Below are positions 53,912-59,398 of a stretch of DNA of 64,000 bases, piece after piece. Position numbers and translations under genes: made by a program. Origin of the DNA: Terriglobia bacterium (GTDB lineage: Bacteria > Acidobacteriota > Terriglobia > Terriglobales > Acidobacteriaceae). The notes beneath the pieces are model-generated. The model was not told the origin of the DNA. It saw only the letters and a program-made list of their open reading frames with translations, and searched no databases. The DNA lies in the NCBI GenBank assembly GCA_020073165.1, contig JAIQFP010000002.1, positions 124,001 through 188,000 on the forward strand, given 5' to 3'. The first letter of the stretch is position 1. The number at the start of each line of letters is the position of its first letter.

Positions 53912-54280
53912 GGGGGCGTCACGGCTTCGACGGAGATGCTTGCGGCCAAGAGGCATGCCGGGGTGCACACACCCGTAATCGCGTGCAAAACAACAATTGC
54001 CAATCAACAGATGGCATACGCTGCTTAATTTAGTTAAGTAGCCGTTCTCGGAGGCTTCGCCCGTGGGCCTCCGAAGGACGTCGCACAGCGGGCTGCTCTT
54101 CCCGGCTACGTCTGGGCCGGGAAGCTAAGATCTCAGGCTAGCGGCTTGCGTTTCTTGTCCGTTCTGAGCGCCGGTCGCGAACGTCCTGGGGTAATGCCCA
54201 GGGCATGAACTGGACTACGCATGTAGGCTCTTGACCAGTAACATTTTCGGACGCGGGTTCGACTCCCGCCGCCTCCACCA
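53912..54280 (+). ncRNA. ssrA: tmRNA (one-piece)
   Basis: Transfer-messenger RNA that frees stalled ribosomes and tags the nascent chain for proteolysis. The 5' GGGGGCG pairs with 3' CGCCTCC, followed by A and an encoded CCA. The T arm GGGTTCGACTCCC and the typical 5' ACGGCTTCGACGG are present. After TAATC the tag frame runs from GCG at 53981 to TAA at 54026-54028, encoding ACKTTIANQQMAYAA. The AYAA end fits ClpXP-type degrons; a Cys at tag position 2 is unusual. Middle segments form GC-rich hairpins consistent with pseudoknots. Circular permutation is excluded by the continuous acceptor pairing. Confidence 0.97.
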
Positions 54281-54542: not shown

Positions 54543-55553
54543 GTGCACCAGGTCGAAAAATCACCGACGCGTTTTCAGGAAATCCTGAACAAGCCCATTC
54601 GCGATCTGGGTTTGAAGCTCGATGGGTCTCCCCTGGACCGCTTCGTGCAACAGTTGTACCGCGAACTGGAACGCAAGAAGCTGAGCAAGTTTCGTCCGCT
54701 TTGCTACCTGACCGACGAGTGGGGGTGTCCCTCGGGCGAGCCGGTGATTGGCATTCCCTTCTATCTCGCCAACCCTGATCTGGCTTCGCTGGAAAAGGAA
54801 ATGAACGATCTCGAGGATGCGCACGAGATCATGATGTACCTGCGGCATGAGGCTGGGCACGCCTTCAATTACGCCTACAGGCTCTACCGTACTCCGGAAT
54901 GGAAACAGATGTTTGGCTCGTATCGCCGTCACTACCGGGACCAATACCGGCCCGTGCCCTTCTCGCGCAAGTTCGTGCGGCATCTGGCGGGCTGGTATGC
55001 GCAGAAACATCCGGACGAAGACTTTGCCGAAACCTTTGCGGTGTGGCTTACCCCGCGTTCGGGATGGCGCAAGCGTTACCGCGGCTGGGGCGCAATGGCC
55101 AAGCTGCGCTATGTGGACCGGATTACGCGCGACCTGGCCAAAACGGATCCGCTTCGCCCGCGTGGCCGCACGGACATCACGGTGGATGAGATGGAGTCCA
55201 CCGTCGCCGACTTCTACCGCCAGTCCACCGCGCAACAGACTCCCGTTGCCGACCTGGCGCTGGACACCGATCTGCTGGACATTTTCAAAGTCTCCAAGAG
55301 GCGCAAGACCGGCCGTCCGGCGCGGGACTTCCTGCATGAGCACCGCAAAGAGGTGATCGATAAAATCGCCTACTGGTCGGGAGTGCAGCGCCCGCTGATC
55401 AAACAATTGGTGGAAGCGATTGAGAAAAGGATCGGCGAGCTGGGCCTGGTCGCGGACCGAACCCGCGAGTCCGAACACCTGACGGAAATCACCGTCTATG
55501 CCACGGCTCTCGCCACGAACTATCTGACCCGAGGAAAGTTTATTCAGCCATGA
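54543..55553 (+). CDS. Putative zinc metallopeptidase
   Basis: Cytosolic protein of 336 residues without a signal peptide. The gluzincin-like site is H102-E-A-G-H106 in YLRHEAGHAFNYAYRLY with a probable third ligand Glu163 in PDEDFAETFAVWLTP. The C-terminal third is helical and basic. It matches the family annotated as putative zinc-binding metallopeptidase; substrate is unknown. The start is GTG 54543 without an obvious ribosome site. The ATP-grasp gene begins 55 bp downstream on the same strand; the pair suggests that one makes and the other trims or matures a peptide bond. Confidence 0.82.
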   Translation: MHQVEKSPTRFQEILNKPIRDLGLKLDGSPLDRFVQQLYRELERKKLSKFRPLCYLTDEWGCPSGEPVIGIPFYLANPDLASLEKEMNDLEDAHEIMMYLRHEAGHAFNYAYRLYRTPEWKQMFGSYRRHYRDQYRPVPFSRKFVRHLAGWYAQKHPDEDFAETFAVWLTPRSGWRKRYRGWGAMAKLRYVDRITRDLAKTDPLRPRGRTDITVDEMESTVADFYRQSTAQQTPVADLALDTDLLDIFKVSKRRKTGRPARDFLHEHRKEVIDKIAYWSGVQRPLIKQLVEAIEKRIGELGLVADRTRESEHLTEITVYATALATNYLTRGKFIQP

Positions 55554-55608
55554 GTATCATCGCTGAGATGCATATAATTGGAGACGCGGCTGTCGGCCGG
55601 AGGCCCGC

Positions 55609-56676
55609 ATGATCGGCGCCAAGCTGAAAATTGCTGTTCTCTACGACCTGTGGGACGACGGAACGGCCCCAGAGCCGGTTGAAAAGCCCGCCCGCACCAC
55701 CAAGCCGCGCAAGAAGACCAAGCACGAGAAAGAAGACCGGGAAGAGATTTTCGAAGCGCTGGAGAAACTTGGCCACCAGCCCTTCTATCACGTGCTCGAC
55801 GGCGGCCTCCAGTCCCTGCACGCGGTGGCCAAGTGCGGAGCCGATCTGATCTTCAACCTGACCGAAGCCTTTGCCGGCGACGACACCAAGGAGATGAATG
55901 TCGCCGCCTATCTCGACCTGCTGGGTCTGCCCTTCACCGGCGCCGGCCCGCACGCCACGTTCCTGGCCCAGGACAAGGCCACTGCCAAGAAGATGTTCGC
56001 CTTCCATGGCATTCGCACCCCGTACTTCGCTACTGCCTATCGCGGCCGCATCGACCACGCCCATGACATTTCCTTCCCCCTCATCGTGAAGCCCCTGCTG
56101 GAAGACGGCTCCATCGGTATCGACTCGGAATCGGTGGTCAGCGGCGTCAAGGAACTCATGGAACGGGTGGAATATCTTCAGAACGAATTCGATTCGCCGG
56201 CGCTGATCGAGGAATACATCGAAGGTCGCGAGATTTACGCCGCAATCCTCGGCAGCTACGAGCACGCGCACGCGCTGCCACTAGTCGAACTTGACCTCTC
56301 CCGCCTGCCCAAAGGCACGCCCAAGATTGCCAGCTGGGACGTCAAGTTTGAGAAGGATACAGAAGTACACAAGCTCACCAAGTCCGCCGTCGCTGAGGAT
56401 CTTGATGAGGAGACCGCTGCCCGTCTGTCAGACACCGCGCTGGCTGCTTACCGCGCTGTCAAGTTGCGCGATTACGGCCGCATTGACATGCGCCTCTCCC
56501 CCAAGGGCGACGTGTACGTGATCGAAGCCAATCCCAATCCCTGGTTGTCCAGCAAGCACGAGTTCGCCATGGCCGCCAAAGCTTCCGGCCGTTCCTATAC
56601 GCAGCTGATCGGCGAAATCGTGGATTTGGCAATGGCCCGATATGCCCCGCGGAGCGGGTCGACAGCAACTTCCTGA
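55609..56676 (+). CDS. ATP-grasp ligase related to D-alanine-D-alanine ligase
   Basis: Protein of 355 residues of the Ddl branch of ATP-grasp enzymes. The N-terminal domain starts IAVLYDLWDDG and has a charged insert (EKPARTTKPRKKTKHEKEDREE, about 22-45). The ATP-grasp core shows QDKATAKKMF, FPLIVKPLLEDGSIGI, ALIEEYIEGREIYAAILG, RIDMRLSPKGDVYVIEANPNPWLS (metal ligands). FNLTEAF replaces the FNALHG of true Ddl, so the substrate is probably not D-Ala-D-Ala. GGAGG precedes the ATG. It is likely to form peptide or amide bonds on an unknown acceptor, with the metallopeptidase. Confidence 0.85.
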   Translation: MIGAKLKIAVLYDLWDDGTAPEPVEKPARTTKPRKKTKHEKEDREEIFEALEKLGHQPFYHVLDGGLQSLHAVAKCGADLIFNLTEAFAGDDTKEMNVAAYLDLLGLPFTGAGPHATFLAQDKATAKKMFAFHGIRTPYFATAYRGRIDHAHDISFPLIVKPLLEDGSIGIDSESVVSGVKELMERVEYLQNEFDSPALIEEYIEGREIYAAILGSYEHAHALPLVELDLSRLPKGTPKIASWDVKFEKDTEVHKLTKSAVAEDLDEETAARLSDTALAAYRAVKLRDYGRIDMRLSPKGDVYVIEANPNPWLSSKHEFAMAAKASGRSYTQLIGEIVDLAMARYAPRSGSTATS

Positions 56677-56697: not shown

Positions 56698-59016
56698 CTA
56701 GAAGGCGGTGGGATCCATCAATTGCAGCGGAAATGCCGCCGGCACCGCGGGCACGGTAAGAGTCTGCGTAGTCCTTCCCGCCAGGCTGGGATCAAAAGGC
56801 ACAAAGCCCAGGTTCAGCGCCGGCGATCCGGGCGACAGCGTATAGTCGTCTCCGCTGGGATTGGCAAACATGGGGTCCAGGTTCTGCGAATGCATGTCCT
56901 CCCCCAACACCTGCCATTGTGCCAACGTATAGCTGGTTTCCTCGTGAGTGGTGGGATCGGTGGTGATGAACGTGGGAGCCTTGCCCGTTGTGTTCCAGTA
57001 AAGATTGTGGTCCAGCACAAATCGCGTTGAGCATGGCACCGGCTGGCCGCTGCCACCCACGTCGTAGCACGACCAGTTGCCGCCTTGCGGCTTGCCTAGA
57101 TCGAAATACGAAATATTGCGGGTAAAGCTGAAGGAAGACGGATTGTCGCCGCCCCGCTGGATGGTGTGGGGATCGCCCAAGGCAAAGATGTTGTTGTCCA
57201 CCAGGTTGTTCTGCGGGTAAATATCGTTAGTATTGTCGGAAAGATTGTTGAAAAAGCCGGCGGAGGAAGTCCGGTACACCAGGTTATTGCGAGCCACCAC
57301 GTTGGACGTTCCCTGATCGAAGTAGATCCCGTGGCCACCATAGCCATCGCTGTCCTGCCAGTTGTGCGTGACGTCGTGGACCACGTTATTCAGAACCTGG
57401 TTTCCGGTGGTTGCTGACGAAGCAAAATAGATTCCTCCCATGTCGCTGGTTACGCCTTGCCCCAGGTCGTGCACCAGGTTGTACGAAACCATGTTGTCGT
57501 GTGCCAGGCCGGCACCCCCCGCGATGCCATACTGGAAACCCACTCCGATCGCTCCGCTGTAGAAATCGTAAACCTCGTTGTGGGTGATGGTGTTGTGGTG
57601 AGAATCTCCCACCCAAATGCCGGTGCCGATCCCGGTCGGCTGGACTCGGCCGCCACCCGCTATCACATTATTCTGTACCAGCGTGTGCTGGGCCACACTC
57701 GCATCGGTGGTGTTTCCGTTCGGCCAGGACCCGATTCGGATGCCGCCCGCTCCCAGGTCGAACAGAGCGCTGTTAAGTACCTGGTTGTCGGTTGTGCTCG
57801 CCGATCCGTTGCCCTCAAACTCAACACCCCAGCCCTGCGTATGCGAAATGGTGCAACCGTCGAGAGTGATGTTGCTCGATCCCGTGAAGCTCAACGCCGC
57901 CGTCACCGTGGGAATGCCCTGCGCATCGCCATAGCCGGTGACCGGCGGCATCCAGTTGTCGTGGGAAAACACGATGCCGGTGAATGTCACATACTGCAGA
58001 TTCGTCGCCAGGATCAACTGCGCCTGCTGTGGAACAATGACCGAGTCCTTAGCCGGGGTTTCGTTCTCCTTCGCAAGGTACGTCAGTGTCCACATCCCGC
58101 TGCTGCTGGTGCACGCCGGAGGATTGGTGCAGCGGTCCAGGTACCATTGCCCCGGTTGGGTCAGTGCTTCCTTGACATTCTCGATCAGATAACGATGTCC
58201 GGTGATGAAGCCATTGACGGGACCTTGAATCGTGGGGCCGGTCAGATAAGCGATGCGGTTCCCTGCATCCACCGACTGCAGACGCATGCGGCTCATCGTC
58301 CAAACTTCAAAGTCCAGGATCTCCACGTCACCCAGTGCCAGGCTGTGGTAATTGGTGGCAACGTCATTGCTGTTGAAGTGGAAACGATCAAAACATTGCC
58401 ACTGTCCGCCGGTCTCGAAGGCGCAATTGGCCGACGAGGATGACTGGTACACCGGTCCGGCGTTGTAGAGATTTCCAGCGAGCGTCGTGCGCGGCCGGTA
58501 GCGCCGCTCGCCGTTGTAGAACAGCGCCTCGAAATTCTGGAAGCTGCTGGAACTGAGCTGCGCCGTCCACACATTGCCCGAGGTGTTCTTCCATCCGGTG
58601 ATCGGTGTTCCGCCACTGATCACTGGAGTTTCGCAGGGATAGTTTTCATAACTGATGGGGGAGGTTGCGCTGCCGGAATCACTCGCGGAGAAAACCAAGG
58701 GTGCGCTAAGGAAATAATTTCCGCCGCGGATCATGACCACATGCTTGCCGCCGGGTTCGCCCTGCACCGCGCGCCGCGCACGATCGGGGCTGGCAAAAGG
58801 ACCATCGCTGTTATCACTGTTAGGTGCGTCGAGAGTTCCGCTCCAGTTGTCGTTGCCGTCCGTGGCCACGTAGAAATCAGCCAAACCGGTGCCACAGCCG
58901 TTCCCAGAACCACCCTGGCCCTGCCCATCATTGAGGGTGGGACCGTTCTTGCCCCCGCAGCCGACGAGAACGAGGAGAAACAGCACCAGCCAGGCTACTA
59001 TCAGCCGGTTTCGCAC
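56698..59016 (-). CDS. Right-handed parallel beta-helix lipoprotein
   Basis: Surface or periplasmic lipoprotein of 772 residues with lipobox LVGC after a TM-like signal. The N-terminal domain includes GTGLADFYVATDGNDNWSGTLDAPNSDNSDGPFASPDRARRAV, typical of polysaccharide lyase-like beta-helix enzymes, and the centre (about 380-650) has repeated NxxxxNxI rungs (VSYNLVHDLG, NQVLNNVVHDV, NNLVYRTSSAGFFNN). Likely a carbohydrate-active or carbohydrate-binding protein. GTG 59016 with GGAGG upstream gives a normal lipoprotein signal; the longer frame adds 30 residues of no signal value. Confidence 0.88.
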   Translation of the reverse strand: MRNRLIVAWLVLFLLVLVGCGGKNGPTLNDGQGQGGSGNGCGTGLADFYVATDGNDNWSGTLDAPNSDNSDGPFASPDRARRAVQGEPGGKHVVMIRGGNYFLSAPLVFSASDSGSATSPISYENYPCETPVISGGTPITGWKNTSGNVWTAQLSSSSFQNFEALFYNGERRYRPRTTLAGNLYNAGPVYQSSSSANCAFETGGQWQCFDRFHFNSNDVATNYHSLALGDVEILDFEVWTMSRMRLQSVDAGNRIAYLTGPTIQGPVNGFITGHRYLIENVKEALTQPGQWYLDRCTNPPACTSSSGMWTLTYLAKENETPAKDSVIVPQQAQLILATNLQYVTFTGIVFSHDNWMPPVTGYGDAQGIPTVTAALSFTGSSNITLDGCTISHTQGWGVEFEGNGSASTTDNQVLNSALFDLGAGGIRIGSWPNGNTTDASVAQHTLVQNNVIAGGGRVQPTGIGTGIWVGDSHHNTITHNEVYDFYSGAIGVGFQYGIAGGAGLAHDNMVSYNLVHDLGQGVTSDMGGIYFASSATTGNQVLNNVVHDVTHNWQDSDGYGGHGIYFDQGTSNVVARNNLVYRTSSAGFFNNLSDNTNDIYPQNNLVDNNIFALGDPHTIQRGGDNPSSFSFTRNISYFDLGKPQGGNWSCYDVGGSGQPVPCSTRFVLDHNLYWNTTGKAPTFITTDPTTHEETSYTLAQWQVLGEDMHSQNLDPMFANPSGDDYTLSPGSPALNLGFVPFDPSLAGRTTQTLTVPAVPAAFPLQLMDPTAF

Positions 59017-59398
59017 GAGGGGCCTCCAGAGCTGCTCGCGGACGGTCGTGGTCAAAAATCGAGGGTAGCGCCAATGTTGTCTCCGGGGCAGGTCACGAAG
59101 GGCCACAGGAGGGCCTATGCAGTTGCACTTCAGAAGGACAGTAACCTGCCCAGGTGGCCAATGAACGGCCGCGCGCGAACTCCCGGTTCACACCCGCATT
59201 CCGCAACAGAAACGTGCACGCAAGGTCCAGGCTGCTGATTCAACCTGCTTTCCCCGCTGCGCTCAGAACCGGGAACTGTGAACCGAGAGCTGAACCCGAC
59301 AAAGAGGGACCTGAATGAATCGCACACTCTCGTGGGCATTCGCTGCCACCCTTGTCCAGCCCCCAAGCCCAGATTCGCGTTTACAATAAGATGTAACC
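59017..59398. other. Divergent intergenic region without a supported gene
   Basis: About 380 bp between the beta-helix lipoprotein and chdC. It holds an imperfect short-period repeat around 59267-59300 (variants of GAACCGGGAACTGTGAACCGA) and a TACAAT at 59382-59387, just upstream of chdC. The few open frames lack ribosome sites. Confidence 0.45.

Follow-up and report, generated by a model that had tools for sequence, protein, structure and literature searches.

A widespread gene pair encoding a putative zinc metallopeptidase and a Ddl-fold ATP-grasp ligase

Two adjacent genes of a Terriglobia bacterium (Acidobacteriota; assembly GCA_020073165.1, contig JAIQFP010000002.1) pair a putative zinc metallopeptidase with an ATP-grasp enzyme predicted to adopt the fold of D-alanine–D-alanine ligase (Ddl), which raises the question of what the ligase joins and whether the peptidase acts on its product. 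The initial annotation read the pair as a system that makes and trims an amino-acid conjugate. Here we examine the two genes within a 64,000-nucleotide stretch of the contig (positions 124,001 to 188,000, hereafter the window), together with their relatives in other genomes.

The gene pair and its two proteins

Both genes were confirmed where the initial annotation had placed them, a HEAGH peptidase gene followed after 55 bp by a Ddl-fold ATP-grasp gene, in open reading frames of the window that share the plus strand (Table 1). Compared with a genome of the same genus, the peptidase gene has a dN of 0.037 and a dS of 0.519, and the ligase gene a dN of 0.024 and a dS of 0.579. The low dN relative to dS indicates that both genes are maintained, and purifying selection on both is strong. 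Upstream of the pair lies a tmRNA gene, which we rejected as a functional partner: it is kept beside the pair in the same-genus genome (locus L169) but was not found, within the length of the loci scanned, at 26 other pair loci or in L170. The open frame that runs tail to tail with the ligase gene on the other side reads, by eye, like a secreted right-handed beta-helix protein.

Table 1. Features of the peptidase–ligase locus, in positions of the window.
Feature	Position	Strand	Details
tmRNA gene	53912–54280	+	tag ANQQMAYAA; 262 bp upstream of the peptidase gene
Peptidase gene	54543..55553	+	336 aa, GTG start; PF15887 Peptidase_Mx match at residues 78–169
RHEAGHA, HExxH zinc motif	54843..54863	+	residues 101–107; HEAGH is residues 102–106
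HPDEDFAE, which probably supplies the third zinc ligand	55008..55031	+	residues 156–163
C-terminal, mostly helical region, about 130 aa	55155–55550	+	peptidase residues 205–336
Ddl-fold ATP-grasp ligase gene	55609..56676	+	355 aa
Basic, probably disordered insert	55675..55737	+	about ligase residues 23–43; low confidence in the model
FNLTEAF substrate-loop motif	55852..55872	+	residues 82–88, where Ddl has the HGxxGEDG loop
Catalytic Y-x-R-x-D and E-x-N-x-N block	56473..56562	+	includes W312, H317 and E318
802-aa open frame	56698–59106	-	tail to tail with the ligase gene

The peptidase resembles Peptidase_Mx (PF15887), a family that Pfam itself calls "putative", in having an HExxH motif and a downstream acidic motif, and it passes the Pfam gathering score for that family (32.2 bits against a cut-off of 27). 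All 37 aligned peptidase sequences match PF15887 at E 0.001, and all 37, the window's included, contain H102, E103 and H106. Alignment of the HPDEDFAE motif points to E159 (36/37), D160 (37/37) or E163 (37/37) as the likely third zinc ligand. Y152 is likewise present in 36 of the 37 sequences, seven residues from E159, a tyrosine–glutamate spacing that we take to resemble the sites of PPEP endopeptidases and lethal factor. The predicted structure (mean pLDDT 88.4) had a best Foldseek E value of 0.38 and nothing at 0.001, leaving the peptidase with no confident relative among solved structures in that search. A second-look alignment placed its first 200 residues near zincin folds, with weak matches to the lethal factor catalytic domain (Z 10.3, 5.2 Å over 158 residues), PPEP-3 (Z 8.7, 3.8 Å over 134 residues) and 4l7a (Z 7.0, 4.8 Å over 159 residues). 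Lethal factor, the PPEP endopeptidases and 4l7a may thus be structural neighbours of the modelled peptidase, at a weak level of similarity. The helical C-terminal region is conserved with the peptidase and is barely covered by this structure comparison. A polar N-terminus suggests that the peptidase is putatively cytosolic.

The ligase scores about 96–97 bits against the D-Ala-D-Ala ligase C-terminal domain of Pfam, and its predicted structure (mean pLDDT 91.9) aligns with the solved Ddl 8evy_A over 293 residues (Z 33.7, 2.4 Å). Its ATP-grasp fold is that of Ddl, as are its metal and phosphate residues; R291, D293, E306 and N308 are invariant in 33/33 aligned ligases, and we presume that the conserved residues keep the metal and phosphate roles that they have in Ddl. 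Its best NCBIfam Ddl model reaches 136.2 bits against a cut-off of 243, and among 25 of 48 matched families no model passes its own cut-off. Scores of this kind against Ddl models mean that the protein is easily named Ddl, a name under which a separate and widespread enzyme would be hidden.

The same genome encodes a canonical Ddl on another contig; this protein reaches 250 bits with the Ddl domain, where the window ligase reaches 97, and it carries the motifs GGRSGEHEVSL and HGTFGEDG. The substrate motifs of Ddl (GGxSxEHE, HGxxGEDG and a Ser-Leu/Met pair), all found in this own-genome enzyme, are lacking in the window ligase. In place of the HGTFGED loop the window ligase has FNLTEAF, a departure from Ddl that the initial annotation had recognized and that alignment with the own-genome enzyme bears out; W312 replaces the glycine that follows NTMP, and H317 and E318 replace the Ser-Met pair. 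Within the family, F82 and N83 occur in 33/33 aligned ligases, E86 in 27/33 (with D in five and A in one) and E318 in 28/33. The positions of H317 and E318 are those of the Ser-Leu pair of E. coli DdlB, which we take to hold the carboxylate of the second D-Ala. Replacement of the Ddl loop and the Ser-Met pair by FNLTEAF, W312, H317 and E318 therefore suggests that the ligase uses another acceptor than Ddl.

With its motifs missing, its score below the cut-off and a canonical Ddl present elsewhere, we rejected the window ligase as the cell's Ddl. The initial annotation had held that its reading of the pair would fail if this were the organism's only D-Ala-D-Ala ligase, and the Ddl on the other contig shows that it is not. 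Likewise, a Ddl-domain match of at least 150 bits was found in 9/10 tested genomes of named loci. The basic N-terminal insert that the annotation had singled out does exist in the window ligase, but only part of the family has it (it is missing from L113, L117 and L124 of Myxococcales and from L118, L127, L133 and L140 of Gemmatimonadota), so it does not define the family. At one further locus (L110:9459-10582) the ligase gene seems to be split in two frames beside an intact peptidase, which may reflect a sequencing error or a pseudogene.

Conservation of the pair across phyla

The initial annotation had proposed a gene-neighbourhood survey and reasoned that rare co-occurrence in relatives would speak against a shared system; the survey found that the genes pair widely. 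Among 247 genomes of the window's phylum, the peptidase occurs in 60 (E 0.001) and the ligase family in 93 (E 1e-20). All 60 peptidase genomes also carry the ligase family (Fisher p 9e-34, a figure that ignores shared ancestry and is inflated by it). At least 48 of the 66 peptidase matches in this sample have a ligase match no more than 500 bp away, a count that left out one 46-bit fragment (G230:C41). The other 18 of the 66 had no adjacent ligase among the matches listed, which counts against a make-and-trim reading. Presence is patchy even close to the window's genome, at 21 of 60 genomes of its family and 45 of 200 of its order. In the phylum of Corallococcus, the peptidase is found in 57 of 146 genomes, at least 53 of which have an adjacent ligase; in one of these paired genomes (G273) the ligase lies upstream of the peptidase.

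At least 553 relatives came out of a scan of named genomes; the best 80 were kept as named loci, and 70 of these 80 have an adjacent or overlapping ligase frame. For four of the ten unpaired loci (L088, L089, L096 and L097) a contig end accounts for the lost ligase; the remaining six (L121, L130, L131, L137, L138 and L143) have no such excuse. The titles of pair loci name Acidobacteria, Myxococcaceae, Gemmatimonadetes, Rokuibacteriota, Eisenbacteria, Planctomycetaceae, Kiritimatiellae, Omnitrophota, Anaerolineales and others, most of them metagenome bins in which single taxon assignments may be wrong. The named genus Corallococcus carries the pair at two loci (L114 and L115).

By homology search, 88 of 120 loci (L044–L163, a set that includes some loci fetched for their ligases alone and in which some genomes occur twice) hold the pair within 800 bp. 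The two genes share a strand in 81 of the 88, with the peptidase first in every case, and lie on opposite strands in the other seven. Co-oriented pairs are closely spaced, with a median of 70 bp between the matched stretches and at most 200 bp in 74/81. The distance matrix of the peptidases tracks that of the ligases (r 0.90 over 75 pairs, where the highest value among 1000 permutations was 0.20), as is expected for genes inherited together; common ancestry alone contributes to this Mantel figure and inflates it. Exceptions to the arrangement are ligases of the same branch that stand apart from any peptidase (L062, L156, L158, L159 and L161) and one locus with the two genes about 4 kb apart (L160). 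The pair is thus a conserved, mostly co-oriented two-gene module that is inherited together across many phyla with its catalytic motifs kept.

The survey also covered third partners, of which no broadly conserved one emerged. No neighbour cluster beyond the pair occurs in more than 13 of 100 loci (L044–L143, many of them short, clustered from open frames of at least 80 aa), and the commonest clusters sit at scattered distances and in both orientations. Eight flanking proteins compared with Pfam were mostly dissimilar: a protein kinase (in L112 and L124), a FUSC transporter, an alcohol dehydrogenase, an epimerase-like protein, an autotransporter and two proteins without a match. On these grounds a broadly shared third partner was rejected. 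The remark in the initial annotation that no obvious precursor peptide gene is present also holds across relatives, as the largest family of small open reading frames within 1 kb occurs at 6/81 loci, all of them in Gemmatimonadota, against 2/72 for a control region 3–4 kb away. We read this excess as shared flanks, since it is confined to small groups of relatives. With no recurrent small reading frame within 1 kb, a graspetide or other RiPP system with a precursor peptide was rejected; the search would overlook a precursor that is distant or very divergent.

Further candidate contexts fell away. The peptidase query had no tblastn match in a plasmid collection, and plasmid carriage was rejected. 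A phage or anti-phage defence origin was rejected as well, as both proteins matched zero PADLOC-DB families and no PHROGs at E 0.01. No open frame was matched by both proteins, which disposes of a fused peptidase-ligase.

Two ligase branches and their aminomutase-linked relatives

In a ligase tree built by a quick method from frames of at least 300 aa, one supported branch of 82 rows contains all rows labelled as co-oriented pairs. The "solo" labels at L054, L058, L115, L116 and L136 in this tree are artefacts that arise where long frames overlap in GC-rich DNA, and L160 is mislabelled in it. A divergent branch of six rows (L050, L051, L129, L139, L141 and L142) has FNQYDDVVHG in place of FNLTEAF, and its ligase genes are convergent with genes of the same peptidase family, in Aminicenantes, Planctomycetaceae and others; the tree carries a long-branch warning where this convergent branch meets L151. 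The separation of co-oriented and convergent ligases indicates that the same peptidase is partnered by two ligase branches in two gene orders.

Other members of the superfamily are tandem FN-type ATP-grasps, 27–40% identical to the window ligase. They differ from the pair in that a KamA-family gene is found at many of their loci and no peptidase at the tandem loci read. At five loci (L149, L150, L151, L152 and L153) ligases of the superfamily, often in tandem, are neighbours of lysine-2,3-aminomutase-like radical SAM genes; in L149 and L152 a GNAT acetyltransferase gene stands between the aminomutase and the ligases. Three of the aminomutase examples pass the KamA-family cut-off of 199 with 307–379 bits, and the same three, at 481–515 bits, fall just under the lysine 2,3-aminomutase cut-off of 525. 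The LAM_C domain has 55 matches in 51 of the 247 genomes, at least 34 of the 55 within 5 kb of a ligase-family match; the largest distance among those 34 or more is 2413 bp. These loci are a candidate beta-amino-acid peptide pathway, and their aminomutase-like neighbours give hints that the ligase superfamily may handle beta-amino acids. The window's genome has no LAM_C match, and only 17/60 peptidase genomes have one, so the hint is not directly transferable to the pair.

What the pair may make and cut

That the two genes are functionally linked, as the initial annotation held, is strongly supported by their co-occurrence; that they make and trim a conjugate is chemistry that we infer. The ATP-grasp enzyme would phosphorylate a carboxylate with ATP and couple it to an amine, giving an amide. 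Loss of the carboxylate-binding serine of Ddl, together with the mostly conserved acidic E318, suggests an amine or a side chain as a possible acceptor, in place of a free D-amino acid. The zinc peptidase would hydrolyse, trim or recycle the ligase product, or cut it to primers. We put at about even the chance that the ligase builds an amide bond onto a small peptide, an amine or an amino-acid conjugate and that the peptidase cuts or trims the product. Making and trimming an amino-acid conjugate is the most economical reading of the pair, one that is as apt to prove wrong as right.

Enzyme combinations of this kind have precedents. The osmolyte N-acetylglutaminylglutamine (NAGGN) is encoded by genes that bring a ligase and a peptidase together in one neighbourhood. 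The amidoligase survey of Iyer in 2009 reportedly describes an ATP-grasp ligase and a peptidase in one gene neighbourhood as well; the literature searched gave no account of the present pair, and that survey, the likeliest place for one, was outside the search. The closest worked-out precedent that we found is cyanophycin synthetase, an ATP-grasp and Mur-ligase-like enzyme whose product is cut into primers by a metallopeptidase-like site (PMC9262961). CphA1 resembles the pair in combining ATP-grasp ligation with a metallopeptidase-like site that acts on the product (PMC9262961). It differs in being a single protein, in having an HxxEH site and in carrying a domain like that of Mur ligases.

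Several other readings accommodate some of the same observations. RimK and tubulin-ligase enzymes, working with carboxypeptidases, are a model for a protein-tagging cycle, in which a protein would receive an amino acid from the ligase, at a side chain or a terminus, and lose it again to the peptidase. The constant pairing of one ligase with one peptidase and the lack of a broadly shared biosynthetic partner suit such a cycle, and a substrate encoded elsewhere would explain why neither a third gene nor a recurrent precursor was found. The ligase nevertheless has the fold of Ddl, whose substrates are free amino acids, no protein target can be named, and the patchy presence in the window's family and order speaks against an essential one; we consider tagging unlikely. 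Similarly unlikely is a pairing without shared chemistry, in which the peptidase would regulate or process the ligase protein, or the two would have only a condition of expression in common. Nothing ties the peptidase directly to a small-molecule product, it could act on something unrelated to what the ligase makes, and the 18 matches with no ligase beside them among those listed fit such independence; against it, the pairing has been kept in both gene orders and by both ligase branches, and every one of the peptidase genomes keeps the ligase family.

A storage peptide or polymer like cyanophycin, whose peptide or isopeptide chain the ligase would extend and for which the peptidase would make primers or recycle the chain, is harder to credit, as Ddl-fold enzymes usually make dipeptides. 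Cyanophycin synthetase does join an ATP-grasp domain with a primer-cutting metallopeptidase-like site (PMC9262961), but the window ligase had no Pfam match to a Mur-ligase domain at E 0.1, and we judge the idea improbable. Lastly, the pair could be a D-Ala-D-Ala or D-Ala-D-X ligase with a VanX-like dipeptidase, forming a glycopeptide-resistance or cell-wall variant. The logic of VanA and VanX is that of a ligase plus a zinc dipeptidase, and the ligase does have the Ddl fold; moreover, the best PF07478 match in a Planctomycetaceae bin (G252, locus L139; completeness not given) is 96.7 bits, and this genome, having no canonical-scoring Ddl, makes a Ddl role of the ligase family possible in some genomes. 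The missing substrate motifs, the score of 136 bits against a cut-off of 243 and the canonical Ddl elsewhere in the window's genome all argue against this variant, as does the peptidase, which matched no VanX family in Pfam and matched PF15887 instead. We regard it as very improbable.

Returning to the making and trimming of a conjugate, a bolder form of this reading is a phylum-spanning module that makes and unmakes an amide. In it, a ligase derived from Ddl would link a protein or a small molecule to an amino acid (perhaps a beta-amino acid or an amine), and a dedicated zinc peptidase would reverse the attachment or mature the product. The ligase would be one branch of a wider FN-type ATP-grasp superfamily, and its sister branch would work with lysine-2,3-aminomutase-like enzymes. 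We offer this form as speculation, and think it doubtful in its entirety.

The module itself is real and widespread. As it consists of two genes and no other broadly shared partner, its reconstitution would involve an unusually small system, and its presence in the named genus Corallococcus means that a peptide, conjugate or protein mark could be sought directly, by comparing cells that have the genes with cells that do not.
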